Shown here one piece after another: positions 3,384 through 38,597 of a stretch of DNA of 38,597 nt. The position numbers and the translations under genes were made by a program. The stretch comes from Acetobacteraceae bacterium AT-5844 (GTDB lineage: Bacteria; Pseudomonadota; Alphaproteobacteria; Acetobacterales; Acetobacteraceae). The first letter of the stretch is position 1. Every line of letters begins with the position of its first letter. The notes below the pieces were generated by a model that saw only the letters and a list, made by a program, of their open reading frames with translations, was not told the origin of the DNA and made no database searches. The DNA lies in the NCBI GenBank assembly GCA_000245075.1, contig JH599923.1, positions 1-38,597 of the forward strand, in the 5' to 3' direction.

Positions 3384-3393
3384 TCACGCTGCC

Positions 3394-3479: not shown

Positions 3480-3510
3480 CAAGGCCGGGGGCGAAATGCC
3501 TCCGGCCTTG
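3480..3510. terminator. Stable hairpin between convergent KGG and ACT genes
   Basis: A 13-bp stem (3480-3492 with 3498-3510, one G-U) and a GAAAT loop lie between the plus-strand KGG gene and the 3' end of the minus-strand ACT gene. It is probably a shared terminator for both directions, although neither side has a clear T-tract. Confidence 0.6.
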
Positions 3511-3522
3511 TCTACGTTCGCC

Positions 3523-3807
3523 TCAGGCGGCGACAGCCAGGCGGTTATGGCGGCCTTCCATGGCCTCTACCCGCCTGACACCCACGATCTGCCCGAGATT
3601 GCCCGCCACCACATGCAGCATTTCCAGCGGCATGGCATCGAGGCTGATTTCCACGCGCAGCAACTCCCCTTCCCGCTGGGAGCGCACACGGTCCGGCACC
3701 AGGTCACGCTTGGCAAAGGGCTCCAGGGCACGGGAGAGCAGGCCAGGATAGGCATCCGCGACAACAGTGAAGCGGGCGGCGGAAAAAGCCGGAGAAAAGT
3801 CAGACAT
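3523..3807 (-). CDS. Small ACT-domain protein
   Basis: A stand-alone 94-residue protein. ARFTVVADAYPGLLSRALEP is the first strand, turn and helix of an ACT fold. It is followed by FAKRDLVPDRVRSQREGELLRVEISLDA (strands 2-3) and a second helix with the final strand GNLGQIVGVRRVEAME. Free-standing ACT proteins of this size resemble the regulatory subunit of acetolactate synthase and bind amino acids, but no ilv gene is nearby, so the ligand and partner are unknown. It has no clear Shine-Dalgarno and is a single gene ending at a strong hairpin. The domain assignment rests on pattern and length. Confidence 0.72.
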   Translation of the reverse strand: MSDFSPAFSAARFTVVADAYPGLLSRALEPFAKRDLVPDRVRSQREGELLRVEISLDAMPLEMLHVVAGNLGQIVGVRRVEAMEGRHNRLAVAA

Positions 3808-4035
3808 GGGAGATGGTCCGATACGTCCGCGCCGGCATTCCGGCGCTGTTGCGAAGAGGCGCGCGGGGCTTCTCCCGGCCGCTGCCCCCCGCAGGGCGCT
3901 TAGGCGGCCGGGCCGCTAATAATCGTCATTCGCTTGGACGACATCGGGCTCATGCAGGCAGCTTAGGCGCTCTTTTCCACCACCTGCAAGACGGTACGCG
4001 CAGGGCCGACATGCACCATGCGCGCACCGTGGCAA

Positions 4036-25266: not shown

Positions 25267-26237
25267 GCGCAAATCTCCTGTGCGGCGAGACGGCCGGTGC
25301 CTTCAGGCGGCTGCCGGCCATCGGCATAGCGGAAGCCCTTCTCGGTGCCGACATCGGGGAGGTAACCGTAGATGGGCTCCCCGGGCAGGCTCTCCGCCAG
25401 AATGGCGCGCGCCTCGGCGAGCTTCGCGAGATCGACGCCGGTTTCCAGCCCCATCGCCTCCAGCATCCAGACCAGATCCTCCGTGACGATGTTGCCCGTG
25501 GCGCCCGGCGAATACGGGCAGCCGCCAATGCCGCCCTGCGAGGCATCAAAAGTCGTCACGCCGACTTCGAGCGCCGCGACGACATTGGCCAGGCCCTGGC
25601 CACGCGTGTTGTGAAAATGCGCTCCACCCGCACGCTCTCCCAGCTCGGCGCGCAGGCGGGAGAACAAGCGCTTCACTTGCGCCGGATTGCCATAGCCGAC
25701 GCCGTCCGAAAGGCCGACACTGTCCGCGCCCTTTTCAGCCAGCCGCACCGCCAGCGCGATGACATCATCCTCCGGCACAGCACTGGAAATGGTGCAGCCA
25801 AAGGCCGTGGATATGCCGATTTCGATTTGCGGTCGCTCCTCTTCCGGCAAGGTGGCACGCCAGGCGACGACCTCTCCCACCTGTTCCACCGCGCGGTCCG
25901 TGCTCACGCCGATATTGGCCCGGCTATGCGCGTCGGAGGCGGAGACCGGCATGGTGATGCGCCGCGCGCCCGCCGCCACGGCGTTCTGCACGCCACGGAG
26001 GTTCGGCGCCAGCGCCAGGACCGAGAGGCCCGGAATGGCGAGGGCGTCCTGAACCACCTCCGCCGTGTCCGCCATCTGCGGCAGCTTCTTCGGATTCACG
26101 AAGGAACCGACTTCGATCTCCCGAAGCCCGGCCGCGGCGAGCGCGCGTATCCAACGGATCTTCGCCTCTGTCGGCATGATGCGGTGGATGGATTGCAGCC
26201 CATCCCGCGGCCCGACTTCGCTGACCAGGATAGTCAT
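25263..26237 (-). CDS. Hydroxymethylglutaryl-CoA lyase family enzyme
   Basis: A 324-residue TIM-barrel lyase of the HMGL/DRE-TIM group. The start MTILVSEVGPRDGLQ carries the metal and substrate motif (VGPRDGLQ). EIEVGSFVNPKKLPQMAD, the Asp/His metal residues in SVGLSDGVGYG and GAHFHNTRGQGLAN, and the cysteine-loop motif GGIGGCPYSPGATGN are all visible. HMG-CoA lyase cleaves its substrate to acetoacetate and acetyl-CoA; the family also cleaves related 3-hydroxy-3-methyl acyl-CoAs. An in-frame GTG at 26246 is possible, but the ATG at 26237 fits the family better. It is the first gene of a two-gene operon with a CoA-transferase and is divergent from an IclR regulator across a palindrome. Confidence 0.93.
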   Translation of the reverse strand: MTILVSEVGPRDGLQSIHRIMPTEAKIRWIRALAAAGLREIEVGSFVNPKKLPQMADTAEVVQDALAIPGLSVLALAPNLRGVQNAVAAGARRITMPVSASDAHSRANIGVSTDRAVEQVGEVVAWRATLPEEERPQIEIGISTAFGCTISSAVPEDDVIALAVRLAEKGADSVGLSDGVGYGNPAQVKRLFSRLRAELGERAGGAHFHNTRGQGLANVVAALEVGVTTFDASQGGIGGCPYSPGATGNIVTEDLVWMLEAMGLETGVDLAKLAEARAILAESLPGEPIYGYLPDVGTEKGFRYADGRQPPEGTGRLAAQEICA

Positions 26238-26322
26238 GCCCCACACTCCCGGAAGCTGAGATGCAAAGCGTGGGATGGGCGAGGCATGGGCACCGTCTCC
26301 TCAGGCCCTCGTCAGGGCATAT

Positions 26323-26339
26323 TTTCTGTCAGACAGAAA
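26323..26339. promoter_or_regulatory. 17-bp palindrome, candidate IclR operator
   Basis: TTTCTGTC-A-GACAGAAA is a perfect inverted repeat. It sits in an AT-rich stretch between the divergent lyase operon (start 26237) and the IclR gene (start 26388). Position and symmetry suit an autoregulated IclR-family site controlling both directions. Confidence 0.7.
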
Positions 26340-26387
26340 TAATTACTTCTGGAAAGAAAAATTAGTTGGCTTCATTCTCCGGCGTCA

Positions 26388-27176
26388 ATGGAAAAGCCAG
26401 CCCCGCATCCTGAGCCCCGGCGCCGTGGCCGCCCCCCTTCCGCGAACAAGGCAGCGGAGGAAGAGAGCGTGCTGCGCGTGGAGGCGGTGGAGCGTGCCCT
26501 CTCGCTCCTTGAAGTCTTCGACCGGCAGGCGGCCCATGGCCACGCCACAAGGTTGAGCCTGAGCGAGCTGGCCGCCGGTGCCGGCCTGTACCCGAGCACC
26601 GTGCATCGCCTCACGGCCTCGCTCATCCGCTATGGCTATCTCCAGCGCGATGCCGATGGCGCCTTCCGCCTCGGGCCGAGCCTGCTGCGCATGGGCCTGC
26701 TTTACCGCGACAGCTTCAACCTGGCCGATTTCATCCGCCCCGCCCTCGCCGCCCTCACCCGGGAGACCGGCGAGACCTCGGCCTTCTTCATCCGCGAGGG
26801 GCAGGACCGGCTCTGCCTGTTCCGCCACCACTCCGACCGGTTGATCCGCCACCATGTGGAGGAAGGCACGCGCCTGCCGCTCGACCGTGGCGCCAGTGGC
26901 CATGTGCTCACCGCCTATTCCGATGGGCATGACGAAAAGAGTGCCGCTCTGCGCGCCGCCGGCCATGCCATCTCCCTCGGCGAGCGCGACCCGGAGGCGG
27001 CGGCCATCGCCGCGCCGGTCTTTGGCCCGAACGGCTTTCTGGGCGCCCTCAGCATCGGCGGCCTGCGCCATCGGTTCGACGAGGCGGTTTGCCGGCAGCT
27101 CGCCGCCACCGTCATGCGCGCCGCCGCAGCCCTTACCACCAGCCTCGGTGGCCGTCCGCCGCCAGGCCAAGCATGA
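26388..27176 (+). CDS. IclR-family transcriptional regulator
   Basis: A 262-residue regulator. After a Pro/Arg-rich lead, VLRVEAVERALSLLEVFDRQ starts the winged helix-turn-helix, with LSLSELAAGAGLYPSTVHRLTASLIRYGYL as the DNA-recognition part (motif pieces LSLSELAAGAGL and YPSTVHRLTASL). The effector domain includes RETGETSAFFIREGQDRLCL, RLPLDRGASGHVLTAYSDG and AAIAAPVFGPNGFLGALSIGG. IclR proteins sense small organic acids or their derivatives. It is divergent from the CoA-transferase/lyase pair and 25 bp ahead of the SMP-30-like gene, so it probably controls both. No clear Shine-Dalgarno is visible. Confidence 0.94.
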   Translation: MEKPAPHPEPRRRGRPPSANKAAEEESVLRVEAVERALSLLEVFDRQAAHGHATRLSLSELAAGAGLYPSTVHRLTASLIRYGYLQRDADGAFRLGPSLLRMGLLYRDSFNLADFIRPALAALTRETGETSAFFIREGQDRLCLFRHHSDRLIRHHVEEGTRLPLDRGASGHVLTAYSDGHDEKSAALRAAGHAISLGERDPEAAAIAAPVFGPNGFLGALSIGGLRHRFDEAVCRQLAATVMRAAAALTTSLGGRPPPGQA

Positions 27177-27201
27177 ACGACAATACGGAGAGAAACGCCT
27201 G

Positions 27202-28098
27202 ATGATGCTGGATACGCCACCCCTGCGTGTCGAAACGCAGCTCTACAGCGCCATGCCGGAGGCGCTGCGGCGGCCGGTGGTGACCGAATGGTCCCGCGCC
27301 AACAAGAAGGGCGAGGCCGTGGATTGCTTCCTGGAAGGGCCGTGCCTCGATACGGAGGGCAATCTCTACCTGGTGGACGTGCCGCATGGCCGCATCCTGC
27401 GCGTGACGCCAGCGAAGGAATGGTCCGTCATCGCTGAGTATGATGGCGAGCCCAATGGGCTGGCGCTGCATCCGGATGGCGACCGGCTTTGCATCACCGA
27501 CTACAAGCAGGGGCTGCTGGCACTCGACCTTCGCGGCGGGAAGCCGGAGCCGCTGCTGGCCCGCCGCAACAGTGAGCGCTTCAAGGGCCCCAATGATCTG
27601 GTCTTCGCCCGCAATGGCGATCTCTACTTCACCGACCAGGGCCAGACCGGGCTGCACGACCCGACCGGCCGCGTCTTCCGCCTGACGCCGCAGGGGCGGC
27701 TGGACTGCCTGCTCTCCAACGGGCCGAGCCCGAACGGGCTGGTGCTCTCACCGGAGGAGGATGTGCTGTTCGTCGCGATGACACGCGACAATTCCGTGTG
27801 GCGCCTGCCCCTCTTGCCGGATGGCTCGACAACGAAGGTCGGCCGCTTCGCTTCCTTCCACGGCGTCTCCGGCCCGGATGGCATGGCGATGGACAGCAGC
27901 AAGCGGCTCTTTGTCGCGCATGCCTCGCTCGGTTGCGTCTTTGTCCTCTCCACCCAGGGCGAGGTGCTGGCGCGGCTGCGTTCGTGCCGCGGCCATACCG
28001 TGACCAACCTGACTCTGACCGGCACGCGTGCGCTCATCACCGAGTCACAGACGGGCGCGGTGCTGGAAGCCGAGCTGGGAGAGCTGCCCCTCCCCTGA
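27202..28098 (+). CDS. SMP-30/gluconolactonase-like beta-propeller hydrolase
   Basis: A 298-residue cytoplasmic protein with GGAGAG 9 bp before the ATG. SMP-30/LRE family signs are FLEGPCLDTEGNLYLVDVPHGRI (N-terminal metal glutamate and first blade), EPNGLALHPDGDRLCITDY, FKGPNDLVFARNGDLYFTD (metal-binding Asn/Asp), SPNGLVLSPEEDVLFVA and GPDGMAMDSSKRLFVAH. Members hydrolyse sugar or other lactones with a divalent metal. It lies between the IclR gene and a Bug binding protein in one likely operon. The actual substrate is unknown; the neighbourhood suggests a lactone intermediate of an organic-acid pathway. Confidence 0.9.
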   Translation: MMLDTPPLRVETQLYSAMPEALRRPVVTEWSRANKKGEAVDCFLEGPCLDTEGNLYLVDVPHGRILRVTPAKEWSVIAEYDGEPNGLALHPDGDRLCITDYKQGLLALDLRGGKPEPLLARRNSERFKGPNDLVFARNGDLYFTDQGQTGLHDPTGRVFRLTPQGRLDCLLSNGPSPNGLVLSPEEDVLFVAMTRDNSVWRLPLLPDGSTTKVGRFASFHGVSGPDGMAMDSSKRLFVAHASLGCVFVLSTQGEVLARLRSCRGHTVTNLTLTGTRALITESQTGAVLEAELGELPLP

Positions 28099-28141
28099 CA
28101 CTCCCGCCTTCAAAAAAATAAATGTCCAAGGAAAACACAGC

Positions 28142-29146
28142 ATGATCACACAGGACCCGCCGCGCCACGGCCTGCTCTCACGTCGCCTGTTGCTGCATGC
28201 CGCGCCCGGCCTCGCCGTGGCGGCGCTTGCGCTTCCTGCCCTGGCGGCCGGTTACCCCTCTCGTGCGGTGCGCATCGTCGTGCCTTACGCGCCGGGCGGG
28301 GCGGTGGACACGCTGGCACGGCGGATGGCTCAGAAGCTCACCGAACGCCTTGGCCAGCCCTTTGTGGTGGAGAACCGGAGCGGCGCGACCGGCACCATCG
28401 GCACCGCTGAAGTGGCACGCTCGGCGCCGGATGGGCTGACGCTGCTGGCCATGGACAATACCTACGCAACGCTGCCCTTCCTCTTCAACAACCTGCCCTT
28501 CGACCACGCCAACGCCTTCATCCCGATCACCCTGACCGCCATCTCGCCTGTTCTGATGGTGACAGGTGCGCGCTCGCCCTATCGCGATCTCGGTACCATG
28601 CTGGAAACGGCGCGCAAACAGCCGGAGAAGGTGACCTTCGGCTCCGGCGGCGTCGGCAGCTCACTGCATCTTTCGGCGGAAGCGCTCCAGCAGGCCGCTG
28701 GCGTGAAGATGTTCCACGTGCCCTACAAGGGCGGCGGCGAGGCGGTGAAGGCGACGCTGGCGGGCGAAGTGGATTTCTGCATGACGTCGCTCGGCTCTTC
28801 CCTGGCGCCCATCCAGGGTGGGCTGCTGCGCGGGCTGGCGATCTGTGGCGACAGCCGCGCGTCCAGCCTGCCGGATGTGCCGACATTTGCCGAAGCTGGC
28901 CTGCCGCAGGTCAATATCGTCAACTGGTCTGGCTTGGCGGCGCCACGCGGCACCCCACAAGCGGTGATCGACACGCTTTATCAGGCCATGGCGGCGTCAT
29001 TGCAGGACGAGGTCATGAAAACCTTCCTGGCCAGTATTGCCTCCACGCCAGGAGGCATGCCGCCCGAAGCATTCACCGATCTCATCCGGCGCGAGGCGGA
29101 AAGCTGGGGCGCCGTGGCCCAGCGCGCGGGCATCGAGCGGCAGTAA
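28142..29146 (+). CDS. Bug-family (TctC-like) periplasmic substrate-binding protein, copy 1
   Basis: A 334-residue exported protein. The start MITQDPPRHGLLSRRLLLHAA resembles a Tat-like signal (SRRLLLHAA) followed by a hydrophobic stretch to ALPALAAGYPSR. The mature N-terminus YPSRAVRIVVPYAPGGAVDTLAR is the Bug signature. FGSGGVGSSLHLSAEAL and FHVPYKGGGEAVKATLAGEVD follow, and the C-terminus is typical. Bug proteins bind carboxylates or other organic solutes for tripartite tricarboxylate transporters, but no TctA/TctB gene is here. It follows the SMP-30-like gene by 43 bp with an AAGGAA ribosome binding site, so it probably captures the substrate of this cluster. Confidence 0.92.
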   Translation: MITQDPPRHGLLSRRLLLHAAPGLAVAALALPALAAGYPSRAVRIVVPYAPGGAVDTLARRMAQKLTERLGQPFVVENRSGATGTIGTAEVARSAPDGLTLLAMDNTYATLPFLFNNLPFDHANAFIPITLTAISPVLMVTGARSPYRDLGTMLETARKQPEKVTFGSGGVGSSLHLSAEALQQAAGVKMFHVPYKGGGEAVKATLAGEVDFCMTSLGSSLAPIQGGLLRGLAICGDSRASSLPDVPTFAEAGLPQVNIVNWSGLAAPRGTPQAVIDTLYQAMAASLQDEVMKTFLASIASTPGGMPPEAFTDLIRREAESWGAVAQRAGIERQ

Positions 29147-29192
29147 ACGAGACGGGGCGGGCTCCATCGGCCCCCCCGCCATCAGCCGCGGC

Positions 29193-30137
29193 CTATGCCG
29201 GCTGGCTCACCTTCCCCAGCAGCTTTCCTTCCCACACTCCCTCCTCCACCATCGCCGCGACCTCCTGCTGCAACAGCTCCTGAAAGCGCTGCACCGCGAG
29301 AGACGCCTTCCGGCCCATCGGCCGGGCGATCACCAGCTTCCGCGAGAGGTGCGGGTCCACCACCCAGCAGGCGGCCAGCTTTCCTTCCAGAACTTCCTGA
29401 TGCACGGCGGGCATGGGCAGAACCGTTCCTCCAATGCCCGCGGCCACCAGCCCCTTCAGCACCTGAAGGGCATCCACCTCCACCGGAATGGTCAGGTGGA
29501 GGCCTTTCCGTGCGGCTTCATTCTCGATGAGAATTCGCAATCCGTGCTGCGGCCCAGGGAGGATCAGCTTCTGCTCAGCCAGTTCCGCGAATGAGATGGC
29601 AGCATGCTGTCCCCTCATGGCCTGGCCTTGCGTGATGAAATACAGGTTCTCGACCAGCAGCGGCGTGAACCGGATGTTCGCCCCCTGCTCCGTCCCATAC
29701 AGCACGGCGATGTCGATCTCGCTGCTGTGCAGCCAATCTAACAAATATCCGCTGAAAGCCGTAACGACGCGGAGCCGCACCTCCGGATAGCATTGCAGAA
29801 AGCGCTGGATCAGCCGCGTGGCCAGCACATCCCCTACAGTCGGCGGCACGCCGAGAATGACCTGCCCACGAACCGAGCCGGCTTCCAGGCTGAGATCCGC
29901 ACGTGTTTCCTCGATCTGCCGCAGGATGCTCGCCGCCCTCTCCCGTAGCATCTCCCCGGCATGGGTCAGCACCATGCCTCGGCCGTGGCGGCTGAACAGC
30001 GTGACCTTGAGCTCCTCCTCCAGCATCCGGATCTGCCGGCTCAAGGCGGGCTGCACGATGCGCAGGCGGTCCGAGGCTTTGCTAAGGCTGCCAAGTTCCG
30101 CCACCTGCATGAAAGTGGCCAGTTGCTTGAGATCCAT
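29193..30137 (-). CDS. LysR-type transcriptional regulator
   Basis: A 314-residue regulator from MDLKQLATFMQVAELGSLSK; an ATG seven codons upstream (30158) is an alternative. The helix-turn-helix spans about residues 17-36 (SLSKASDRLRIVQPALSRQI), followed by LEEELKVTLFSRHGRGMVLT. The effector domain begins VRGQVILGVPPTVGDVLATRL. It is divergent from the split ThDP decarboxylase genes, the usual arrangement for a LysR activator of the adjacent operon. The short intergenic region holds TTAT-N13-ATAA. The inducer is unknown but likely a substrate or product of the divergent operon. Confidence 0.93.
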   Translation of the reverse strand: MDLKQLATFMQVAELGSLSKASDRLRIVQPALSRQIRMLEEELKVTLFSRHGRGMVLTHAGEMLRERAASILRQIEETRADLSLEAGSVRGQVILGVPPTVGDVLATRLIQRFLQCYPEVRLRVVTAFSGYLLDWLHSSEIDIAVLYGTEQGANIRFTPLLVENLYFITQGQAMRGQHAAISFAELAEQKLILPGPQHGLRILIENEAARKGLHLTIPVEVDALQVLKGLVAAGIGGTVLPMPAVHQEVLEGKLAACWVVDPHLSRKLVIARPMGRKASLAVQRFQELLQQEVAAMVEEGVWEGKLLGKVSQPA

Positions 30138-30174
30138 GCTGCCATCAAATCTCGGCATAGAAAGCAGAGCAAGA

Positions 30175-30195
30175 TTATAATTCCGCTACGAATAA
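30175..30195. promoter_or_regulatory. Candidate LysR binding site
   Basis: TTAT (30175-30178) and ATAA (30192-30195) are inverted around 13 bp, partly overlapping ATTATAAT. They lie in the 110-bp gap between the LysR gene and the decarboxylase alpha gene. The spacing is close to the T-N11-A architecture of LysR sites. The arms are short, so this is tentative. Confidence 0.4.
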
Positions 30196-30247
30196 CTTCG
30201 GGCCTACACCAGAAAAAACCTCAATGTCGGTGGAGGAGACGTCTCGG

Positions 30248-30787
30248 ATGGCGCTCGATAGCGTGGGTGCGGCCGCGCCCAACTGGCAACAGGACGTCTT
30301 CGACGTTCTGAAAGCCGCGAAGGTCAGGCACGTCGTCTATGTCCCCGATGCCGGGCACGCGACGGCCATACGGCTGGCCGAGGCGGATGAGGACATCCAA
30401 TCCGTCGTGCTGACAACGGAGGAGGAAGGCATCGGCTACCTGGCCGGCGCCTGGCTGGGCGGCGAGCGCGGCGTACTGCTGATGCAATCCAGTGGCGTGG
30501 GCAATTGCATCAACACGCTGGCGCTGCAGGCCTGCACCCGCTTCCCGCTGTTGATGGTGGTGACCATGCGGGGCGACTGGGCCGAGTTCAACCAGTGGCA
30601 GAACCCCATGGGGCAAGCCACGGAAGCCGCCCTCAAGCTGATGGGCGTGCTGACCTGGCGCGCCGATGAACCCAAGGACGTCGCCCCGCTCCTGCGCGGC
30701 GCTGCCACCATGGCCTTCGAGGGAGATGCCGCCTGCGCGGTGCTGCTCGGCCAGCGATTGATCGGTGAGAAGGAGTGGGTGAAGTGA
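30248..30787 (+). CDS. ThDP-dependent 2-oxoacid decarboxylase, alpha (PYR-domain) subunit
   Basis: A 179-residue subunit resembling the N-terminal domain of sulfopyruvate (ComD) and phosphonopyruvate decarboxylases. WQQDVFDVLKAAKVRHVVYVPD begins the domain. TTEEEGIGYLAGAWLGGERG carries the glutamate that activates ThDP (pieces TTEEEGIGYL and AGAWLGGERG). VLLMQSSGVGNCINTLALQA and FPLLMVVTMRG complete the PYR fold. The ATG at 30248 is preferred for its GGAGGAG ribosome site 9 bp away; an ATG at 30224 lacks one. It overlaps the beta gene by 4 bp. Together the two should decarboxylate a 2-oxoacid to an aldehyde. The substrate side chain (sulfo, phosphono or other) cannot be told from sequence. 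Confidence 0.85.
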   Translation: MALDSVGAAAPNWQQDVFDVLKAAKVRHVVYVPDAGHATAIRLAEADEDIQSVVLTTEEEGIGYLAGAWLGGERGVLLMQSSGVGNCINTLALQACTRFPLLMVVTMRGDWAEFNQWQNPMGQATEAALKLMGVLTWRADEPKDVAPLLRGAATMAFEGDAACAVLLGQRLIGEKEWVK

Positions 30788-31371
30788 CCAGGGGTGGAAC
30801 GCTCGACCGGCGCGCCATCGTCGCCGACCTGCTCAAGGACCGCGGCGACCTGCTTGTCGTCACCGGCCTCGGCTCCCCGTCCTATGACGTGATGGCCGCG
30901 GGCGATCACGACCACAATTTCTACCTCTGGGCCGCCATGGGCAGCGCGGCCATGGTGGGGCTGGGCCTGGCTCAGGCGCAGCCGGAGCGGCCGGTGCTGG
31001 TGGTGACCGGCGATGGCGAGCAGCTGATGGGCTTCGGGGCCCTCGCGACCATTGCGCTGCGCAAGCCGCGCAACCTCAGCATCGTCATTCTGGATAACGG
31101 CCATTTCGGCGAGACCGGCATGCAGCCGAGCCATGCCGGCCAGGGCATTGAGTTCACCCGTGTGGCGGAGGCGATGGGCTTCCCGACGGTCGACCTCATT
31201 ACCGAGCGGCAGGGCGTGGAGCCGCTTCGCCGGCGCCTTCACGCGCGGGAGGGGCTGAACCTCGCCGTCGTGAAGATCAGGCCCGAGAACCCGCCGCGCG
31301 CCTTGCCGCCGCGCGATGGTGTCCATGTCAAGAACCGCTTCCGCCAGGCACTGGGGTTCCGGCCGGCATGA
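30784..31371 (+). CDS. ThDP-dependent 2-oxoacid decarboxylase, beta (PP-domain) subunit
   Basis: A 195-residue partner, GTG start at 30784 with AAGGAG 9 bp upstream; the start overlaps the alpha stop (GTGA). The ThDP/Mg motif is GDGEQLMGFGALATIALR through VILDNGHFGETG (the G-D-G ... N pattern). YLWAAMGSAAMVGLGLAQAQ precedes it, as in ComE and phosphonopyruvate decarboxylase C-domains. The C-terminus PPRDGVHVKNRFRQALGF is a short tail. A 44-codon ORF starts on its stop codon. The operon alpha-beta-(small ORF)-Bug is probably activated by the divergent LysR regulator. Confidence 0.87.
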   Translation: MTRGGTLDRRAIVADLLKDRGDLLVVTGLGSPSYDVMAAGDHDHNFYLWAAMGSAAMVGLGLAQAQPERPVLVVTGDGEQLMGFGALATIALRKPRNLSIVILDNGHFGETGMQPSHAGQGIEFTRVAEAMGFPTVDLITERQGVEPLRRRLHAREGLNLAVVKIRPENPPRALPPRDGVHVKNRFRQALGFRPA

Positions 31372-31499
31372 GCACCGGGGCAGCGCTGTTGGAAGGCCCA
31401 GGAAAAAGCGGCCGGGAGGCAATCTGCGAATATTTGCAGACGGAGACGGTGTGGGTGAACCTGCAGGAGGGCGTGCCAAACCTATCCGTCATGCGCTGA
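31368..31499 (+). CDS. Tiny coupled ORF after the decarboxylase (43 aa, unknown)
   Basis: An ATG overlaps the beta-subunit stop (ATGA) and opens a 43-residue frame beginning MSTGAALLEGPGKSGREAIC and ending PNLSVMR. It has no recognised domain and no own ribosome site beyond coupling. The 18-bp near-palindrome at 31423-31440 lies inside it, so this stretch may instead be regulatory DNA. Coding status is uncertain. Confidence 0.25.
   Translation: MSTGAALLEGPGKSGREAICEYLQTETVWVNLQEGVPNLSVMR
31423..31440. promoter_or_regulatory. 18-bp near-perfect palindrome before second Bug gene
   Basis: TCTGCGAATATTTGCAGA is symmetric except for one pair. It lies 142 bp ahead of the Bug gene start and 51 bp after the decarboxylase beta stop. 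It could be an operator for a separate promoter of the Bug gene. Confidence 0.5.
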
Positions 31500-31581
31500 T
31501 ATCCAGCCGCGGCACGGCCTGGAAGCGGGGCAACGAGACCTGGCCCGGCCAGCAACAGCCGCGTGAACCCAGGGAGGACCC

Positions 31582-32574
31582 ATGTCTGGAATTCATCGCC
31601 GTGCCTTGCTCCGAACCGTCGCCGCTGGCGCTGCCGCGCCGGCGGTCCTGGCGAGATCAGCTGCCGCAGCCTCCTGGCCCGAACAGCCGGTGCGCCTGAT
31701 CTGCCCCTTCGCCGCTGGGGGTCCGACCGACGTGGCGGCGCGCCTCGTCGCGGATGGAATGACCGGCGTGCTGCCACAGCGCGTGCTTGTCGAGAACCGG
31801 ACAGGCTCCGGCGTGGTCGTCGGCACCGAGGCCGTGGCGAAGGCGCCGGCCGACGGATACACCCTGCTCTACAGCACCATCGCCCACGCGGTGCTGCGTC
31901 CCCTCTTCCCCAATCTCAGCTTCGATCCGCTCAAGGATTTCCGGCCGGTCGCCCTGGCCGGCACAATCCCGATGCTGTTGATGGTGAACAACGCGGTGCC
32001 CGCGCGAAACCTGCAGGAACTCATTGCGATGTTCCGCAGCAAGCCAGGCCAGTACGACTATGGCAGTTCCGGCGCGGGTGGTGCGGTGCACTTGGCCACG
32101 GAGTTGTTTCTGCACCAGGCAGGTGGCTTGAAGGTGAACCATATTCCCTATCGCGGCTCGGCTCCGGCGATGCCCGATCTGCTGAACGGCAATCTCACCA
32201 TGTTCCTGAACGTGGCATCGGACGGCATCGCCAGTGTGCAGCGTGGCACCACACGCGCGCTCGCCGTCAGCTCCGCGCAGCGCTTGCCGCAGTTACCTGA
32301 CGTGCCGACCTTCGCCGAAGCCGGCCTGACGGAATACGAGGCCTATACCTGGCATATGATCTTCGCACCCGCGGCAACTCCGACCCCGATTGTCGATCAG
32401 CTGAATGAGGCTGTGAACAAGGTGTTGCGCACGCCTAACCTGCAGCAGCGGTTCAGTGACCTCTCGATCCAGGTCCGGACCGACAGCACGCCCGCCACGG
32501 CACTCGCCTGGCTGCAATCAGAAACCGCAAAGTGGGAAGGCGTGGTGCGGGGGGCGGGCATCACCGTGAACTGA
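31582..32574 (+). CDS. Bug-family (TctC-like) periplasmic substrate-binding protein, copy 2
   Basis: A 330-residue exported protein with GGGAGGA upstream. The N-terminus IHRRALLRTVAAGAAAPAVLA is a twin-arginine-like signal; the mature protein starts SWPEQPVRLICPFAAGGPTD, the Bug signature. YGSSGAGGAVHLATELF and NHIPYRGSAPAMPDLLNGN follow, with a typical LPQLPDVPTFAEAGL hinge near the C-terminus. It is related to, but clearly distinct from, the Bug protein at 28142-29146, so the two may bind different solutes. No TctAB membrane genes are present. It lies downstream of the decarboxylase genes and upstream of a MarR regulator. Confidence 0.93.
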   Translation: MSGIHRRALLRTVAAGAAAPAVLARSAAAASWPEQPVRLICPFAAGGPTDVAARLVADGMTGVLPQRVLVENRTGSGVVVGTEAVAKAPADGYTLLYSTIAHAVLRPLFPNLSFDPLKDFRPVALAGTIPMLLMVNNAVPARNLQELIAMFRSKPGQYDYGSSGAGGAVHLATELFLHQAGGLKVNHIPYRGSAPAMPDLLNGNLTMFLNVASDGIASVQRGTTRALAVSSAQRLPQLPDVPTFAEAGLTEYEAYTWHMIFAPAATPTPIVDQLNEAVNKVLRTPNLQQRFSDLSIQVRTDSTPATALAWLQSETAKWEGVVRGAGITVN

Positions 32575-32704
32575 CGCCGAAAAGGTGAGGGCGACGCCCG
32601 CCCTCACCCATGGCAGCCCGCTCGCCCGCGTCCGGCACTCCACGCATGGGTCGCAACCTCATTTTGCGGCTGGCCGCGTCATGGTGAGAACGGTATGCCG
32701 AGGC

Positions 32705-33136
32705 ATGACGACGCCGACCGATGCCCAGCTCGCAACCCTTGGTGCTGCCTTCGGCACGTTTGCGCGGCGATACAAGCTGTCCGCTGCCAACCTCGCCGAC
32801 AGTCCGCTCAACGAGGTCGACACCCAGGCGCTCCTCTACGTCGCCGAGCACCAGGATTGCGGACCGACCGATATCGCCCGGTTTCTCGGCCTCCCCAATA
32901 CGACCATCTCGTCGGCCACTGACAGGCTGGCCAAGCGCGGGCTGCTGGAGCGCGCACGCATGGAGGATGACCGGCGTGCCGTTGCGCTCCGCCTGTCCAG
33001 CGAGGGAGAGACCCGCGTCGCGGCTATCCGCCAGGCCTACCAGGACATGTGCCGCCTGATGCTCGACCCCCTGACGCCGCAGGAGCGGGAGACCTTCATC
33101 TCCCTTATAACGAAGATCGTATTCAACGACCATTGA
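32705..33136 (+). CDS. MarR-family transcriptional regulator
   Basis: A 143-residue winged-helix regulator from MTTPTDAQLATLGAAFGTFA. Longer in-frame starts (ATG 32681, GTG 32585) add non-family residues, and none has a good ribosome site. DNA-binding features are LNEVDTQALLYVAEHQDCGPTD (pieces LNEVDTQALL and YVAEHQDCGPTD), IARFLGLPNTTISSATDRLAKRG with recognition helix TTISSATDRL, and the wing RARMEDDRRAVALRLSSEGE with the D-x-R motif. MarR proteins repress nearby genes until an aromatic or other ligand binds. It sits 72 bp upstream of the molybdenum hydroxylase operon, and a 20-bp inverted repeat spans its own stop codon. Confidence 0.92.
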   Translation: MTTPTDAQLATLGAAFGTFARRYKLSAANLADSPLNEVDTQALLYVAEHQDCGPTDIARFLGLPNTTISSATDRLAKRGLLERARMEDDRRAVALRLSSEGETRVAAIRQAYQDMCRLMLDPLTPQERETFISLITKIVFNDH

Positions 33137-33160
33137 ATAGTACGAATCTCGCCATACTTT
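33120..33160 (+). promoter_or_regulatory. Candidate MarR operator and promoter of the Mo-hydroxylase operon
   Basis: TATTCAA and TTGAATA (33120-33126 and 33133-33139) are inverted around CGACCA and straddle the MarR stop. The right arm contains TTGAAT, a good -35, followed after 16 bp by TACTTT (33155-33160) as -10. A repressor bound here would block this promoter, which is about 50 bp before the first hydroxylase gene. Confidence 0.55.
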
Positions 33161-33208
33161 CCAGGTCGGACGCGCCCCTGCGTCCGCGCCTTCGCCTGGA
33201 GGACCAAC

Positions 33209-33715
33209 ATGGCGATAAGGATCAACGGCGCTGAAGTCGAAGCGCCGGAGGACGCCCGCGTCTCCCTGCTCGATCTGCTGCGCGAGCGTGTCCATCTCAC
33301 CGGCACCAAGGTCGGCTGCAATCAGGGGGCCTGCGGGGCCTGCACCGTTCTGGTCGATGGCGAACGCGTGCTGTCCTGCCTGACCCTGGCAGCACAGGTT
33401 GACGGACGGTCCGTCACCACCATTGAGGGGCTGGCCGAAGCCGAGGCTCTCCATCCGCTTCAGGCCGCTTTCATCGACCATGACGGCTTCCAATGCGGGT
33501 ATTGCACGCCCGGCCAGATCTGCGCAGCCGCCGCCATGTTGGCTGAGGTCGCTGCCGGCGCGCCGAGCTATGTCACCGCCGATCTGACAGCCGAACGCGT
33601 CCCTCTGACGCGCGAGGAGATCCGCGAGCGGATGAGCGGGAATCTGTGTCGTTGCGGCGCCCATAACGGCATCGTCGACGCCATCCTGCAGGTCGCGGCG
33701 GAGCGCGCGGCATGA
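33209..33715 (+). CDS. Molybdenum hydroxylase, [2Fe-2S] small subunit
   Basis: A 168-residue iron-sulfur subunit of the xanthine dehydrogenase/CO dehydrogenase (CoxS/PaoA) family, with GGAGGA before the ATG. The plant-type cluster ligands are in GCNQGACGACTVLVDGERVLSC (Cys 37, 42, 45, 57); the second cluster is bound by FQCGYCTPGQI (96, 99) and NLCRCG (147, 149). It carries electrons from the Mo centre to FAD. No Tat signal precedes the domain, unlike E. coli PaoA, so the enzyme is probably cytoplasmic. It overlaps the FAD-subunit gene by 4 bp. Confidence 0.95.
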   Translation: MAIRINGAEVEAPEDARVSLLDLLRERVHLTGTKVGCNQGACGACTVLVDGERVLSCLTLAAQVDGRSVTTIEGLAEAEALHPLQAAFIDHDGFQCGYCTPGQICAAAAMLAEVAAGAPSYVTADLTAERVPLTREEIRERMSGNLCRCGAHNGIVDAILQVAAERAA

Positions 33716-34698
33716 ACCCGGTCGAGTATCGCCGCCCGGCAACGGCTGACGAGGCCCTCACATTGACCGGCTCCGCCGGCGCCAGGCTGCTCGGCGGCGG
33801 CACCAACCTTGTCGATCTCATGCGCAAGGGCGTTGAGCGCCCTTCCCTGCTGGCCGACGTCTCGGGGCTCTCGTCCCTGATTGAACCCACCGAGGGCGGC
33901 GGCCTGATGATCGGCGCCGCGGCGCGGAACAGCGCCGTGGCCGCTCATCCGCTGGTGCGTGCCCATTATCCCATGCTCGCCCGCGCGATCCTGGCGGGAG
34001 CCTCCGCCCAGATCCGCAACATGGCCACGGTCGGCGGCAATCTGATGCAGCGAACCCGCTGCCTGTACTTTGCCGACACGGCCGGATCACGCTGCAACAA
34101 GCGTTCGCCTGGAAGCGGCTGCGACGCGCTGGAGGGTTTCAACCGCTATCATGCGATCCTCGGTGCCTCCGGCGACTGCATCGCTGTTCATCCGTCGGAT
34201 ATGGGCGTGGCACTTGCCGCCCTGGACGCTCAAATCCGCATCTTGAGCACCGGCGGCATACGGGTGGTCCCTCTCACCGAGTTCCATCGCCTGCCGGGTG
34301 ACAGACCCGACCTCGAGACCGCGCTGGAGCCTGGCGAGCTGATCGTCTCGATAGAGCTCCCCCCATCATCCGTCGCAGCCCGCTCTGCCTATCGCAAGGT
34401 GCGCGACAGGGCGAGCTATGCCTTCGCCCTCGTCTCGGTCGCCGCCGGGTTGGCGGTCCGGGACGGGCGGGTCGAGGATGTCCGCATCGCCTTCGGAGGG
34501 GTCGCGCCGCGGCCCTGGCGCGCATTCCGCGCCGAAGCGGTGCTCCTGGGCCGCCCGCCGACGACCGAAGCTTTCGAGGAAGCCGCCGAGGCAGAGCTTC
34601 AGGATGCCACGCCGCTTTCAGGCAATAGCTTCAAGCCGAACCTTGTCAGACGGACGATGACCGCCGTCCTGTCCGAACTCGCTGGAGATGATCGATGA
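33712..34698 (+). CDS. Molybdenum hydroxylase, FAD subunit with PaoB-like extra cysteines
   Basis: A 328-residue flavin subunit (CoxM type). The FAD motifs are ARLLGGGTNLVDLMR (about 24-38) and IRNMATVGGNLMQRTRC (about 101-117). After the second motif comes an insert with Cys117, 128, 137 and 156 (RTRCLYF, SRCNKR, GSGCDA, GDCIAVHPSD). This matches PaoB/YagS-type subunits, where such an insert holds an additional [4Fe-4S] cluster, and is absent from plain CoxM proteins. The C-terminal CO-dehydrogenase flavoprotein domain includes YRKVRDRASYAFALVSVAAG. It is coupled to both neighbours by 4-bp overlaps. The extra cluster points to the aldehyde-oxidoreductase branch. Confidence 0.93.
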   Translation: MNPVEYRRPATADEALTLTGSAGARLLGGGTNLVDLMRKGVERPSLLADVSGLSSLIEPTEGGGLMIGAAARNSAVAAHPLVRAHYPMLARAILAGASAQIRNMATVGGNLMQRTRCLYFADTAGSRCNKRSPGSGCDALEGFNRYHAILGASGDCIAVHPSDMGVALAALDAQIRILSTGGIRVVPLTEFHRLPGDRPDLETALEPGELIVSIELPPSSVAARSAYRKVRDRASYAFALVSVAAGLAVRDGRVEDVRIAFGGVAPRPWRAFRAEAVLLGRPPTTEAFEEAAEAELQDATPLSGNSFKPNLVRRTMTAVLSELAGDDR

Positions 34699-37007
34699 GC
34701 AGGATTCAGAATGCCATCATCGGGTCGGTCAGGACCGCGATCGGGTGGGTTCCAGCGCAGTGGCTGCCGGGCGGCACGCCGGACCCATTGATCGGACGCA
34801 ACGCGGTGATCGGGCGCCAGGCCTCCCGGCTGGACGGCCCGCTGAAGGTTGCCGGGAAGGCCCGCTTCGCGGCCGAGATCGCGATGGACCGCCTCTCCTA
34901 CGCCGCGCTGGCGCATAGTCCGATCACCCGCGGGCGCATCACACGGCTCGACACCAGTGCCGCCGAAGCGGCGCCCGGGGTCATCCTGGTGCTGACCCAC
35001 CGCAACATGCCGCGCTTGAACCCCCTGCCCCTGATCAGCATCACCGACCTCGGCGCCGTGGGAAACAGCAACCTGCCGATCATGCAGGACCAGGTGATTC
35101 GGTATAACGGCCAGGTCGTCGCGCTGGTGGTCGCTGAGACACAGGAGCAGGCCGACCACGCCGCTTCGCTGCTCGAGATCGACTATGCAGCCGAGGAGGC
35201 GAGAACCTCGTTCCACGACGCGAAGGCGACCGCGCGTGTTCCGGCCTCGATCCTGATCGAGAAGAATCACCTCTCGGTCGGCGACGCCGAGCGGGAGCTC
35301 GAACGGTCGGCCCACCATGTCGATGAGGTCTACCGGACGCCGGGCCAAAACCACAACGCCATCGAACCCCATGCCGTCACGGTGGCCTGGGAGGGCGAGG
35401 CGCTGCTCATCCACGATGCCACCCAGATGATCGCGGCGAGCGCCAACGCCATCGGCAAGCTCTTCGGCCTGAAGAAGGGACAGGTGCGCGTGGTCTCGCC
35501 CTTCGTTGGGGGCGGCTTCGGTGGCAAGGGGCTATGGGACCACCAGATCGTTGCCGTCGCGGCCGCCCGGCTGATCGGCCGCCCGCTGCGCCTGGCGCTC
35601 ACCCGTGAGGGCGTCTACCGGATCATCGGTGGCCGCACCCCTGCCGAGCAGCGTGTCGCCATCGGTGCCGATCCGGAGGGTACCTTCACGGCGCTCGTCC
35701 ATACCGGCTACTCCATCATGCCCCCTTACGGCGCCTGCCCGGAGCAGTACACGCTCGGAAGCCGCGCGCTTTACCGCTCGAAGAGCTTCGAAGTCGTCCA
35801 GCGCCATCTCGATCTCGACATCGTGCCCAATACCTTCATGCGGGCGCCCGGCGAGGCGATCGGCAGCTTCGCGCTCGAAAGCGCCATTGACGAGCTGGCG
35901 CATAGCATGGCGATCGATCCCATCGAGCTGCGCCTCCGCAACCTGCCGGAGCGGCATCCGACGACAGGCGTTCCCTTCTCGCAGCACGCTTTGGGCCAAG
36001 CCTACCGGGACGGCATGAAGCGGTTTGGCTGGGAGCGGCGAAGCGCTACGCCGGGAATGCGGCGCGAGGGCGAATGGCTCATCGGCATGGGCTGCGCCAC
36101 AGGAAGCTTTCCTTATGCGCGGATGCCTGGCGCGAACATCCGCCTCACCCTGCGCCGCGACAGTTCCGCGACGCTGTCCTGCTCGGCGCAGGAGATGGGC
36201 ATGGGCACCGCGACGGTGCAGACACAGCACGCGGCGGACCGTCTCGGGCTGCCCCTCGACGCTATCACTTTCGAGCTGGGCGACTCCGCCCTGCCCGCGG
36301 CGCCCTTCGCTGGAGGTTCCTCGCAGACGGCGTCGCTTGCGGGCGCCGTGGTGGCCGCGGCGGACAAGCTGGCGGGCGAATTGCTGCGGCTTGCCGGAAA
36401 TGACAGCCCTCTCGCGGGTCTCCGGGCCGGCCAGGTCCGCCTCGCCGAAGGCAGCGTCGTTTCCATCGATGACCCCAACCGGCGTGAAAGCTATGGCTCG
36501 ATCCTGTCCCGCGCAGCGCGGGAGGAGATCACCGTCGCAGCAGCCGGAAGCCCGCCGATAGAGTTCCTGAAATTCGCCATTCACAGCACTTCGGCGGTGT
36601 TCTGCGAATTGCGCGTCAGCACGGTCACCGGCGAAATCCGCGTCGATCGGCTGTTAGGCTCATTCGACTGCGGGACAATCCTCAATCCCAAGACAGCAAC
36701 GAGCCAGCTCAAAGGCGGGATGATCATGGGCCTCGGGCTCGCGCTCACCGAGGAGACGCTGTTTGACGAGCGCAAGGGCCGGATCATGAACGCCTCGCTC
36801 GCCGACTATCACCTGCCCACGCATCTCGATGTGCCCGCTATCGACGTCATCTGGACCGGCATTCCCGACCCCCGCACGCCTCTCGGCGCGCGGGGGATCG
36901 GTGAGATCGGCATCACCGGTGTCGCGGCGGCCGTTGCCAATGCGGTCTTCAATGCGACAGGTCAGCGGATCCGCGACTTGCCGATCACACTGGACAAGCT
37001 GTGGTGA
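34695..37007 (+). CDS. Molybdenum hydroxylase, large Mo-cofactor subunit (PaoC/CoxL-like aldehyde oxidoreductase)
   Basis: A 770-residue catalytic subunit. The aldehyde oxidase N-domain begins RQASRLDGPLKVAGKARFAA. Mo-cofactor loops include SPFVGGGFGGKGLWDHQIVA, the MRAPGEAIGSFALESAIDEL segment (about 382, the substrate-arginine loop of PaoC-type enzymes), GQ-loop equivalents around SAQEMGMGTATVQTQHAA, and the C-terminal GARGIGEIGITGVAAAVANAV, whose glutamate (about 737) is the catalytic base. It lacks the CoxL active-site Cys loop of true CO dehydrogenase as far as can be seen, so an aldehyde or N-heterocycle is the likely substrate. No PaoD/XdhC-type maturation gene follows in the window. 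Confidence 0.95.
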   Translation: MSRIQNAIIGSVRTAIGWVPAQWLPGGTPDPLIGRNAVIGRQASRLDGPLKVAGKARFAAEIAMDRLSYAALAHSPITRGRITRLDTSAAEAAPGVILVLTHRNMPRLNPLPLISITDLGAVGNSNLPIMQDQVIRYNGQVVALVVAETQEQADHAASLLEIDYAAEEARTSFHDAKATARVPASILIEKNHLSVGDAERELERSAHHVDEVYRTPGQNHNAIEPHAVTVAWEGEALLIHDATQMIAASANAIGKLFGLKKGQVRVVSPFVGGGFGGKGLWDHQIVAVAAARLIGRPLRLALTREGVYRIIGGRTPAEQRVAIGADPEGTFTALVHTGYSIMPPYGACPEQYTLGSRALYRSKSFEVVQRHLDLDIVPNTFMRAPGEAIGSFALESAIDELAHSMAIDPIELRLRNLPERHPTTGVPFSQHALGQAYRDGMKRFGWERRSATPGMRREGEWLIGMGCATGSFPYARMPGANIRLTLRRDSSATLSCSAQEMGMGTATVQTQHAADRLGLPLDAITFELGDSALPAAPFAGGSSQTASLAGAVVAAADKLAGELLRLAGNDSPLAGLRAGQVRLAEGSVVSIDDPNRRESYGSILSRAAREEITVAAAGSPPIEFLKFAIHSTSAVFCELRVSTVTGEIRVDRLLGSFDCGTILNPKTATSQLKGGMIMGLGLALTEETLFDERKGRIMNASLADYHLPTHLDVPAIDVIWTGIPDPRTPLGARGIGEIGITGVAAAVANAVFNATGQRIRDLPITLDKLW

Positions 37008-37046
37008 GCTCCGACCGAGAGCATTGGGCTCGTCAATCAGCGGCCC

Positions 37047-38180
37047 TCAGAGGGTGACGCGCACCACGCTTTCCTTCGAGCCTCTGGCAGCCGCCCTTGT
37101 GTTCTTCACCGACACGAACAACGTGCCGCTGGCCTCATCCAACGCCATGCTGTTGGGGTGGGCTCCCAGCTCGACGGTGGCAATCGCGGCGTAGCTGGCG
37201 CTGTCCAGCACCGTGAGGGACCCACCCTCCCGGTTGGTGACGTAAAGGCGCTTGCGCGCGGCATCCAGCCGCAGCGTCAGCGGCCCTTTACCCGTCGGCG
37301 CTTCATGCAACAGCTTGCCGGTCTCCGGGTCCAGCGCCACCAGCCGGTTACCAGGGTGGTGGGAGACGAAGCCCGGCTGCATCTTCTCCTGGAAGCCCGG
37401 CATGCTCTCCAGCCCCTGGTCCACTGCCAGCACGCGGTTGCTGGCGGCATCGAAGGCCAGGTTCAGCGGCTGTTCCGCTCCGCCGGATTCGACATTGCGG
37501 GTGATGGCCAGGCTGCCCGCATCCACAGTCACCAGCCGCCCCAGCAGGGTGGAAACGAAGACCCGCCCCCGCGCATCGTCCATGGCGACGCCCGTCGCGC
37601 CAGGGCCGATACCCGTGATGGTCTTTTCCAGCTTCAGGTTCTTCGCATCCAGCGCAAAGAGCGCGCTGTCCTTCATGCCGCGCCCGGGCGCGTAGAGGCG
37701 CTGCCCGGTAGCATCCAGCTGCAGCTCGCGCAGGAAGTAGGTGTAGTTTTCCTTGCCGTCCTCGCCGCGCACCTTCTCATCCACCTGCACGGTGCCGAGC
37801 ACGCGGTTGGAAGCGATGTCGATGACGCTGATAGCGGCATCCACGCTGTGCCCGACATAGAGGCGGCCGCTGGCGTCATCCAGGGTGACGCCGAAGCCCT
37901 TCTTCGGCAGCGCGATCTCGGCCTGCACGGCCAGGGTGTGGGGATCGAGCCGGAACAGCTTGCTGGGGGGAGCGTTCTCTCCGAAACCGCCGGCGGAGGC
38001 GACAAAGAGCGCCTTCTGGCTAGGGCTGTAGGCCAGTTCATAGAGGGCAGGCGCCAGCTCGGCGCGCTGCACCTGGGCCTCCGCTGCGTGGCCGACGCGG
38101 GATGCGCCAGCCATACCGGCCGCCAGCAAGGCGAGGAAGGGCCTGCGGCCGAGGGCGGTGTGGGGACGGTGCGTTGCCAT
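37047..38180 (-). CDS. YncE-like beta-propeller protein, probably exported
   Basis: A 377-residue protein with a signal-like N-terminus, GRRPFLALLAAGMAGASRVG (twin-arginine-like), ending near HAAEAQ. The body is repeating propeller blades of the YncE/cytochrome d1-like type: LAYSPSQKALFVASAGG, GVTLDDASGRLYVGHSVDAA, GVAMDDARGRVFVSTLLGRL, LRLDAARKRLYVTNREGGSL and MALDEASGTLFVSVKN. YncE-type proteins are periplasmic and often linked to iron limitation. It lies 33 bp downstream of a DUF3325 gene on the same strand, a pairing typical of TonB/PepSY iron-uptake clusters. Biochemical role unknown. Confidence 0.9.
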   Translation of the reverse strand: MATHRPHTALGRRPFLALLAAGMAGASRVGHAAEAQVQRAELAPALYELAYSPSQKALFVASAGGFGENAPPSKLFRLDPHTLAVQAEIALPKKGFGVTLDDASGRLYVGHSVDAAISVIDIASNRVLGTVQVDEKVRGEDGKENYTYFLRELQLDATGQRLYAPGRGMKDSALFALDAKNLKLEKTITGIGPGATGVAMDDARGRVFVSTLLGRLVTVDAGSLAITRNVESGGAEQPLNLAFDAASNRVLAVDQGLESMPGFQEKMQPGFVSHHPGNRLVALDPETGKLLHEAPTGKGPLTLRLDAARKRLYVTNREGGSLTVLDSASYAAIATVELGAHPNSMALDEASGTLFVSVKNTRAAARGSKESVVRVTL

Positions 38181-38213
38181 GCGTGGGTCCTTTCGGAAAT
38201 CGTTGTGGGAGCC

Positions 38214-38546
38214 TTAGACGCTGCGCAGCAGCAGCATCAGGCCGGCTGGAATGGGCGCCGCCGCGAGCGCCAGGGCGATGCGAGGCGCGTAGGTCAGCAG
38301 CATTGCCAGTGGCATCGCCGTGGCGGTCAGGATGCCGGCCCAGAACACCAGCCCCAGCGCCCAGCCGGCGGCCTGCGCCACCGGCAGCATCGAGGCCGCC
38401 AGCAGCCCCCAGCCCAGCGCGGTGAGCAGGCGCCGGCGCCAGGGCGGAATGGCGCGGCGACGGAACACCTGCTCATGGTGCCGCTCCATGGCCAGGCAAA
38501 GGGCAAGGAAGCCAGCATAGGCGAGCGCGAAGCCGAGGACGATCAT
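38214..38546 (-). CDS. DUF3325 small membrane protein
   Basis: A 110-residue protein with three hydrophobic stretches (about 2-19, 42-60 and 65-105) and a basic loop, RRRAIPPWRRRLLTALG. Pattern and length match DUF3325, a family found next to PepSY-domain and DUF3649 proteins and TonB siderophore receptors. It is cotranscribed with the YncE-like gene. The remaining 51 bp to the window edge hold no complete gene; the next gene upstream, expected to be the PepSY protein, would lie outside. Confidence 0.8.
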   Translation of the reverse strand: MIVLGFALAYAGFLALCLAMERHHEQVFRRRAIPPWRRRLLTALGWGLLAASMLPVAQAAGWALGLVFWAGILTATAMPLAMLLTYAPRIALALAAAPIPAGLMLLLRSV

Positions 38547-38597
38547 CGCGCCGCCTCCGCCGGGCCGCGGGCGGGCAAGCCGGGTGCGGGCCTGCGG

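Follow-up and report, generated by a model that had tools for sequence, protein, structure and literature searches.

Gene Row and Its Two Probable Modules

Does a row of codirectional genes that joins a split thiamine diphosphate (ThDP)-dependent decarboxylase to a molybdenum (Mo) enzyme of the PaoABC type encode one pathway? This question is raised by a stretch of 38,597 nucleotides from Acetobacteraceae bacterium AT-5844 (contig JH599923.1), hereafter called the window, which corresponds to positions 1–38597 of contig C14 in its own genome, labelled G000. An earlier note on this DNA had read the decarboxylase pair (alpha and beta), a Bug binding protein, a MarR regulator and three PaoABC-like subunits as possibly a single new pathway module running away from a divergent LysR gene. 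The sequence comparisons suggest that the row probably consists of two separately regulated modules side by side: LysR with alpha, beta, a lost aldehyde dehydrogenase (ALDH) gene and Bug, and MarR with PaoABC.

The boundary between the modules is placed between Bug and MarR because the DNA homology switches there from one type of locus to another. Window positions 29215–31371 and 31509–32579 align with the Roseomonas-type locus L069 at 80–81% nucleotide identity, and positions 32705–37002 align end to end with DNA of the Sphingobium RAC03 plasmid (locus L201) at 73%. The homology seam is therefore 32580–32704. A short hairpin lies within it, and the segment 32560–32640 folds with −33.7 kcal/mol (z −2.61), 4 of 200 shuffles being equally low. 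The terminator scan returned no site in the seam (32580–32704) and did not pick up the 10-bp hairpin. The row comprises the following features:

29193–30158, (−): LysR regulator, divergent from alpha (module 1; Pfam HTH_1 and LysR_substrate)
30224–30787, (+): alpha subunit, PYR domain of the split ThDP decarboxylase, DAGH type (module 1; Pfam TPP_enzyme_N)
30775–31371, (+): beta subunit, PP domain, GDGE type (module 1; Pfam TPP_enzyme_C)
31404–31499, (+): ALDH gene remnant, last 31 codons and stop (tblastn with the ALDH of locus L160, residues 465–495)
31582–32574, (+): Bug/TctC binding protein (module 1; Pfam TctC)
32584–32608, (+): perfect 10-bp GC-rich hairpin after the Bug stop, in the module seam, without a T-run (fold of 32560–32640)
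32705–33136, (+): MarR regulator (module 2; Pfam MarR)
33209–33715, (+): 2Fe-2S (FeS) subunit, PaoA-like, without a Tat (twin-arginine translocation) leader (module 2; PaoA model 246 bits, profile 54–217)
33712–34698, (+): flavin adenine dinucleotide (FAD) subunit, PaoB-like, with [4Fe-4S]-type insertion (module 2; 5g5g_B 290 bits, four Cys aligned)
34695–37007, (+): Mo subunit, PaoC/5y6q-like (module 2; PaoC model 565 bits; 5y6q_C 466 and 5g5g_C 432 bits)

All genes named in the earlier note (LysR, alpha, beta, Bug, MarR, FeS, FAD and Mo) are present and open, and the seven genes from alpha to Mo indeed lie on the (+) strand with LysR divergent on the (−) strand. For alpha, the gene stands but the start does not: it had been given as 30248, and the real start is at 30224, 24 bp earlier. 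The MarR start was set at 32705, the first position at which the DNA aligns with the annotated MarR gene of Sphingobium. The ALDH remnant and the 10-bp hairpin are two features that had not been listed before.

Linkage of the Pair to PaoABC in Other Genomes

Neighbours of the pair were counted by tblastn within 10 kb of beta in all 80 named loci (L069–L148), which are the best 80 of 419 confirmed beta relatives. As some loci are truncated at contig ends, these counts are lower bounds, and they are not independent, many of the loci being from Pseudomonas. With a threshold for the Mo subunit of 30% identity over 40% of the length, a PaoABC-type Mo or FAD subunit was found near beta in none of the 80 named loci, none of the nine scanned plasmid loci and none of the 12 G-handle loci, a set that partly overlaps with the named one. 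A tenth plasmid locus, L209, was left out of the tblastn count with a beta under the 40% threshold; its annotated genes include no Mo subunit. Locus L141, from an alphaproteobacterial metagenome-assembled genome, contains a xanthine dehydrogenase (XDH)-type Mo subunit (open reading frame 2564–4453) about 2 kb downstream of beta, which is 25% identical to the window Mo subunit and thus under the threshold.

The order sample covers 299 genomes; Mo scoring was confined to the three top candidates in each, and beta/Mo pairs were compared by visual inspection. A beta relative (E ≤ 1e-15) is present in 129 of these genomes and a Mo relative (E ≤ 1e-100) in 95, whereas orthologues of at least 75% identity for beta and at least 55% for Mo occur in 14 and 11 genomes, respectively, with the window's genome counted in both. 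Besides this genome, only G281 has both orthologues among the matches listed, on separate contigs (C46 and C44) and with the Mo gene split. Only the window has beta and Mo within 10 kb among the matches listed, which for beta reach to near E 1e-36, the nearest other pair being 17.9 kb apart (G292, contig C54). In the phylum-wide sample, beta (E ≤ 1e-30) was found in 17 of 398 genomes and Mo (E ≤ 1e-120; best two candidates scored) in 71, and among the matches listed the nearest same-contig pair besides the window is about 137 kb apart (G352, contig C1).

Since the linkage between alpha/beta and PaoABC is not conserved in relatives, the single conserved module fails the linkage check that the earlier note had itself named. 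Its reaction sequence, from 2-oxoacid to aldehyde to acid, fares differently: it fits ALDH, one of the usual partners of the pair, but the assignment of the second step to PaoABC finds no conserved linkage.

The MarR-PaoABC Cassette

Seen from the other side, the Mo enzyme has its own company. A MarR relative (41–65%) directly precedes the FeS-FAD-Mo genes in all seven fetched relatives with a Mo identity of 60.9–77.7% (L201, L202, L203 and L217–L220; other plasmid Mo matches at 62% lie outside this set). No MarR relative at E ≤ 1e-5 was present in 13 fetched relatives of about 55–59% (L149–L158 and L221–L223), and neither alpha nor beta was found at E ≤ 1e-5 in any of the 20 fetched MarR-PaoABC or PaoABC relatives, of which L201–L203 and L217–L220 were fetched as 16–20 kb. 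Judged from these loci, MarR-PaoABC is a free-standing cassette in other genomes. The closest Mo relatives found are those of the Sphingobium sp. RAC03 plasmid (77%) and G440 (78%), and the window's own order reaches at most 59% over the full length. Because the best full-length match is 59% in the own order versus 77% in a Sphingobium plasmid, we infer both the transfer of MarR-PaoABC and its direction: the cassette was probably gained horizontally, apparently from distant bacteria.

The Mo subunit scores 565 bits with the PaoC model, 350 with XdhA and 299 with the alpha subunit of 4-hydroxybenzoyl-CoA reductase. Against structures, it reaches 466 bits with 5y6q_C, 432 with PaoC (5g5g_C), 203 with 4-hydroxybenzoyl-CoA reductase and 149 with quinoline oxidoreductase. 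By these hidden Markov model and phmmer scores, on which the placement rests, the subunit groups with the aldehyde oxidoreductases, as the earlier note had expected. An N-heterocycle hydroxylase identity is unsupported, its scores being far lower. The PaoB-type FAD subunit was also correctly recognized, as its C117, C128, C137 and C156 align with the four cysteines of PaoB (5g5g_B). The NCBIfam equivalog cut-offs are nevertheless missed by the Mo subunit (PaoC, 565 versus 1180 bits) and the FeS subunit (PaoA, 246 versus 322 bits).

In comparison with E. coli PaoABC and the aldehyde oxidase 5y6q, the window enzyme shares the three subunits, the FAD subunit with its four-cysteine insertion and an aligned glutamate, E737 of the Mo subunit being positioned at PaoC E692, which we take to be the catalytic residue. 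Unlike PaoABC, it has P473 where PaoC has R440, presumably an active-site arginine; it is accompanied by its own MarR, with no PaoD/XdhC-type gene seen adjoining in the window; and its Mo subunit carries an N-terminal extension of about 32 residues. This extension (34695–34790, WLPGGTPDPLIGR type) is common to relatives such as L151 and L152 and lies outside the PaoC alignment. A further difference concerns the FeS subunit, which lacks a Tat leader: the first start codon of the frame is at 33209, and alignment to the PaoA profile starts only at its position 54. E. coli PaoA, in contrast, possesses a Tat leader, according to the available part of PMC3958847, and is periplasmic. Owing to the missing leader, the window PaoABC is probably cytoplasmic. 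Module 2 would then be a PaoABC/5y6q-type aldehyde oxidoreductase under its own MarR, probably serving general aldehyde detoxification or oxidation. The E. coli enzyme prefers aromatic aldehydes and does not use nicotinamide adenine dinucleotide (same part of PMC3958847).

Two stand-alone PaoABC loci, L151 (12825–14630) and L152 (12690–14474), encode, divergently from the FeS gene, a protein whose N-terminal letters resemble those of a ThDP enzyme; it was not seen in the PaoABC locus L150.

Identity of the Alpha/Beta Pair

The pair is probably a split ThDP-dependent 2-oxoacid decarboxylase belonging to a DAGH/GDGE-type subfamily distinct from ComDE, its activity being predicted from sequence. 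It shows adjacent PYR and PP chains, the GDG...N motif and a conserved Glu in the PYR chain. In alpha, DAGH (42–45), E66 and E68 are each at least 97% conserved in 96 aligned rows; in beta, GDGE (79–82) and N108 are conserved, with E82 at least 97% in 96 rows. Beta matches the beta chain of RhiEF (9iz3_B, E 5e-16), and alpha matches 9u8r_A and 9iz3_A. Like ComDE, RhiEF and LumKL (the last of these not compared by sequence), the pair divides PYR (alpha) and PP (beta) between two chains of roughly 20 kDa each and carries the GDG...N motif. ComDE and the window pair have the PYR-chain Glu and the GDG...N motif in common, but identity to Leisingera ComDE is 31% for alpha and 35% for beta, and the alpha DAGH and beta E82 differ. 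Unlike ComDE, RhiEF and LumKL, the window-type pair has CoA-ester and ALDH genes as recurrent partners. Together with these partners it is spread over Alpha-, Beta- and Gammaproteobacteria as well as Deinococcus, under no annotation other than 'thiamine pyrophosphate-binding protein', 'phosphonopyruvate decarboxylase' and, in places, 'aldehyde dehydrogenase'.

Usual Partners and a Predicted Pathway

In the 80 named loci, with neighbour families checked on single representatives, beta is accompanied by acyl-CoA dehydrogenase (55), LysR (48), type III CoA-transferase (43), hydratase (30) and CoA lyase (26) genes, followed by RraA-type (20), EtfB (19), aminotransferase (19), a second RraA-like type (16) and Bug (15), and by GlcD-like oxidase (8), 2-hydroxyacid dehydrogenase (3), PxpA (3) and PxpC (3). 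At least one of four CoA-ester gene kinds lies near beta in 56 loci. An ALDH gene is found within 10 kb of beta in 14 and directly downstream of it in 12. Near-complete sets are present in L160, Haematobacter, Bosea, Mesorhizobium ciceri and Deinococcus, and the annotated plasmids with fuller sets are those of Haematobacter, Sphingobium TomMM7A, Bosea, Mesorhizobium ciceri (with MmgE/PrpD) and Deinococcus (with MmgE/PrpD, PxpA and urea amidolyase). Genes read as 5-oxoprolinase adjoin the pair in Deinococcus and Variovorax; on the Variovorax plasmid, LamB/YcsF, allophanate hydrolase and carboxyltransferase genes, which we take to be PxpABC, stand next to LysR-alpha-beta-ALDH. Many Pseudomonas loci have an aspartate-type aminotransferase gene directly before alpha. 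The Bug of the window is homologous to Bug genes near alpha/beta in L069–L072, L074, L159 and L160.

A more distant, divergent pair is found in L209 (Bradyrhizobium guangxiense plasmid p53363, 993–14101; alpha 49% and beta 35% identical), together with a glutamate-dehydrogenase-like gene, ALDH, MaoC, CoA-transferases, MmgE/PrpD and an ABC transporter. Among 72,556 records, this type of pair turned up on seven plasmids, all of peanut Bradyrhizobium; the pairs are at least 99% identical there and not independent. Peanut is rich in 4-methyleneglutamine, and for this reason the occurrence would fit the pathway predicted here.

The neighbours suggest that the substrate of the pair is a substituted 2-oxoglutarate that feeds methylsuccinate/itaconate-type CoA chemistry; a 4-substituted 2-oxoglutarate would be the simplest substrate fitting this logic. 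A 2-oxoacid is proposed because the aminotransferase, GlcD-like oxidase, 2-hydroxyacid dehydrogenase and glutamate-dehydrogenase-like neighbours can all make 2-oxoacids. In the predicted route, the starting compound, either an amino acid resembling glutamate or pyroglutamate or else a 2-hydroxyacid, would be converted to a substituted 2-oxoglutarate, which alpha/beta would decarboxylate to a substituted succinic semialdehyde. ALDH would normally convert the semialdehyde to a branched C5-type dicarboxylate, to be broken down by the type III CoA-transferase, acyl-CoA dehydrogenase, hydratase and a citramalyl-CoA-lyase-like enzyme. An itaconate/methylsuccinate-type route is favoured because ALDH together with these four CoA-ester enzymes resembles the cluster described in the available part of PMC12290011. 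All four kinds, and MmgE/PrpD at some loci, likewise stand beside alpha/beta, whereas alpha/beta and ALDH do not belong to the description in that part of the source. No description of the predicted pathway was found in the literature searched.

Some of the downstream genes may lie elsewhere in G000. An acyl-CoA dehydrogenase orthologue (89%) at positions 101338–102495 of contig C25 is followed by CoA-transferase (51%) and hydratase (42%) genes. In this region (L193, 4109–10513), TctB and TctA are encoded upstream of the three genes, and this TctAB could be the membrane partner of the window Bug. The window itself contains a second Bug-type cluster at 24091–29146, comprising a type III CoA-transferase, an HMG-CoA-lyase family protein (286 bits, above the cut-off of 246), a divergent IclR, an SMP-30-like protein and a second Bug.

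Several observations weigh against this picture of two modules and the pathway predicted for the first. The pair occurs without CoA genes in five of the 12 G-handle loci (L159, L161, L164, L165 and L226), and there is no CoA set in the annotated plasmid stretches of Paracoccus yeei, Variovorax, B. cenocepacia and Methylobacterium radiotolerans; the share of Pseudomonas among the 80 loci tempers the positive counts. The lyases near the pair score 161–173 bits versus the RipC/Ccl cut-off of 375, and the substrate is deduced from neighbours only. In G000, the CoA-transferase and hydratase on C25 share only 51% and 42% identity with their L160 counterparts; since the best hydratase match in this genome is on C57 (48%), the C25 hydratase is not clearly the orthologue. 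As to the seam, transcriptional read-through into MarR-PaoABC is possible, because all seven genes point the same way, no gap between them exceeds 210 bp and the hairpin lacks a T-run. The guanine-cytosine profile, at 62–69% throughout 27000–38597, is uninformative on the transfer, for which sequence identity is the sole argument.

An ALDH Remnant Between Beta and Bug

In the relatives L070, L072/L161, L159 and L160, an ALDH gene lies between beta and Bug, giving the order alpha-beta-ALDH-Bug. The corresponding gap in the window measures 210 bp and contains an in-frame stretch of 31 codons, closed by a TGA, whose product aligns with the C-terminal 31 residues of the L160 ALDH (67.7% identity, E 9.45e-9 versus the whole window, with no other tblastn match at E ≤ 1). 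No close ALDH copy was found elsewhere in the G000 assembly: with the G138 ALDH as the query, the best match is 42%, compared with 97, 88 and 86% in G256, G240 and G012, respectively. A search for such remnants in L069 and L071 gave nothing convincing. The simplest reading of these sequences is that the linked ALDH was lost by deletion in this lineage; an assembly error is possible. On the Burkholderia cenocepacia plasmid (L229, 8682–10282), the gene after beta is annotated as a short ALDH-family coding sequence (393 bp) followed by an IS3 transposase, possibly a second case of ALDH loss beside alpha/beta.

Alternative Readings of the Row

The decarboxylase pair could be a ComDE-like sulfopyruvate decarboxylase of sulfonate metabolism, and in favour of this the ComD and ComE models are its best NCBIfam matches. 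The scores nevertheless remain below the equivalog cut-offs (112.8 versus 147.95 bits for TIGR03845; 137 versus 221.5 bits for TIGR03846), which, with the low identity to Leisingera ComDE and the differing DAGH and GDGE residues, sets the pair apart, and no sulfonate genes (such as xsc, suyAB or comABC) are annotated near it in the plasmid loci read. On cut-offs, identity and neighbours, a ComDE/sulfonate identity is rejected as hardly credible. A Mo-hydroxylase coming after a split ThDP decarboxylase is not new in itself: the accessible text of PMC12746152 describes the ThDP pair LumK/LumL, of similar size, and then the Mo-hydroxylase LumJ, with other chemistry. By analogy, the window pair would decarboxylate a heterocyclic carboxylate and the Mo enzyme would hydroxylate the ring of the product, and the XDH-type Mo subunit near alpha/beta in L141 could be cited in favour. 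Such a route is very improbable here, as LumJ is a single 140 kDa chain (same text), the window Mo subunit scores with aldehyde oxidoreductases, no Rieske or ring-cleavage gene is seen among the annotated neighbours of both modules in the window, and the recurrent partners of the pair are CoA-ester genes and ALDH.

A different kind of alternative proposes a functional replacement, in which PaoABC took over from the deleted ALDH in this lineage and oxidises the semialdehyde formed by alpha/beta. The in-frame 31-codon remnant where relatives keep a whole gene, the best own match to the G138 ALDH of only 42% and the codirectional PaoABC, two genes on from the beta–Bug gap, all speak for it. In addition, E. 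coli PaoABC oxidises succinic semialdehyde, as stated in PMC4287710, so the window enzyme could act on the predicted product. ALDH loss alone, however, does not prove replacement: seven of the other 13 beta-orthologue genomes (G193, G165, G259, G258, G188, G104 and G281) are without such an ALDH above 47%, and they have no PaoABC near alpha/beta in the fetched loci, where an unlinked ALDH seems to be enough. Furthermore, MarR stays with PaoABC, implying a signal of its own. On balance, we regard the replacement as possible but rather unlikely. If it is true, the reaction sequence of the earlier note would be right, for this genome only. Its fullest version is doubtful: a horizontally gained cytoplasmic PaoABC would have replaced the deleted ALDH of an undescribed pathway that leads from 4-substituted (pyro)glutamates over 4-substituted 2-oxoglutarates and, through the DAGH-type ThDP enzyme, substituted succinic semialdehydes to the methylsuccinate/itaconate CoA route, and that would also be a biological source of methylsuccinate.

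Implications

With two modules as the preferred reading, a plausible operon interpretation is corrected and two better questions are exposed. One concerns a widespread, unstudied split ThDP enzyme, whose recurrent partners make its substrate directly testable. The origin of methylsuccinate was unclear until recently, as noted in the consulted portion of PMC12290011, and the predicted route, if true, would be one more source of this compound. The other concerns the leftover of the ALDH gene close to what seems to be a recently acquired aldehyde oxidoreductase, a candidate for the natural replacement of an enzyme by an unrelated one.

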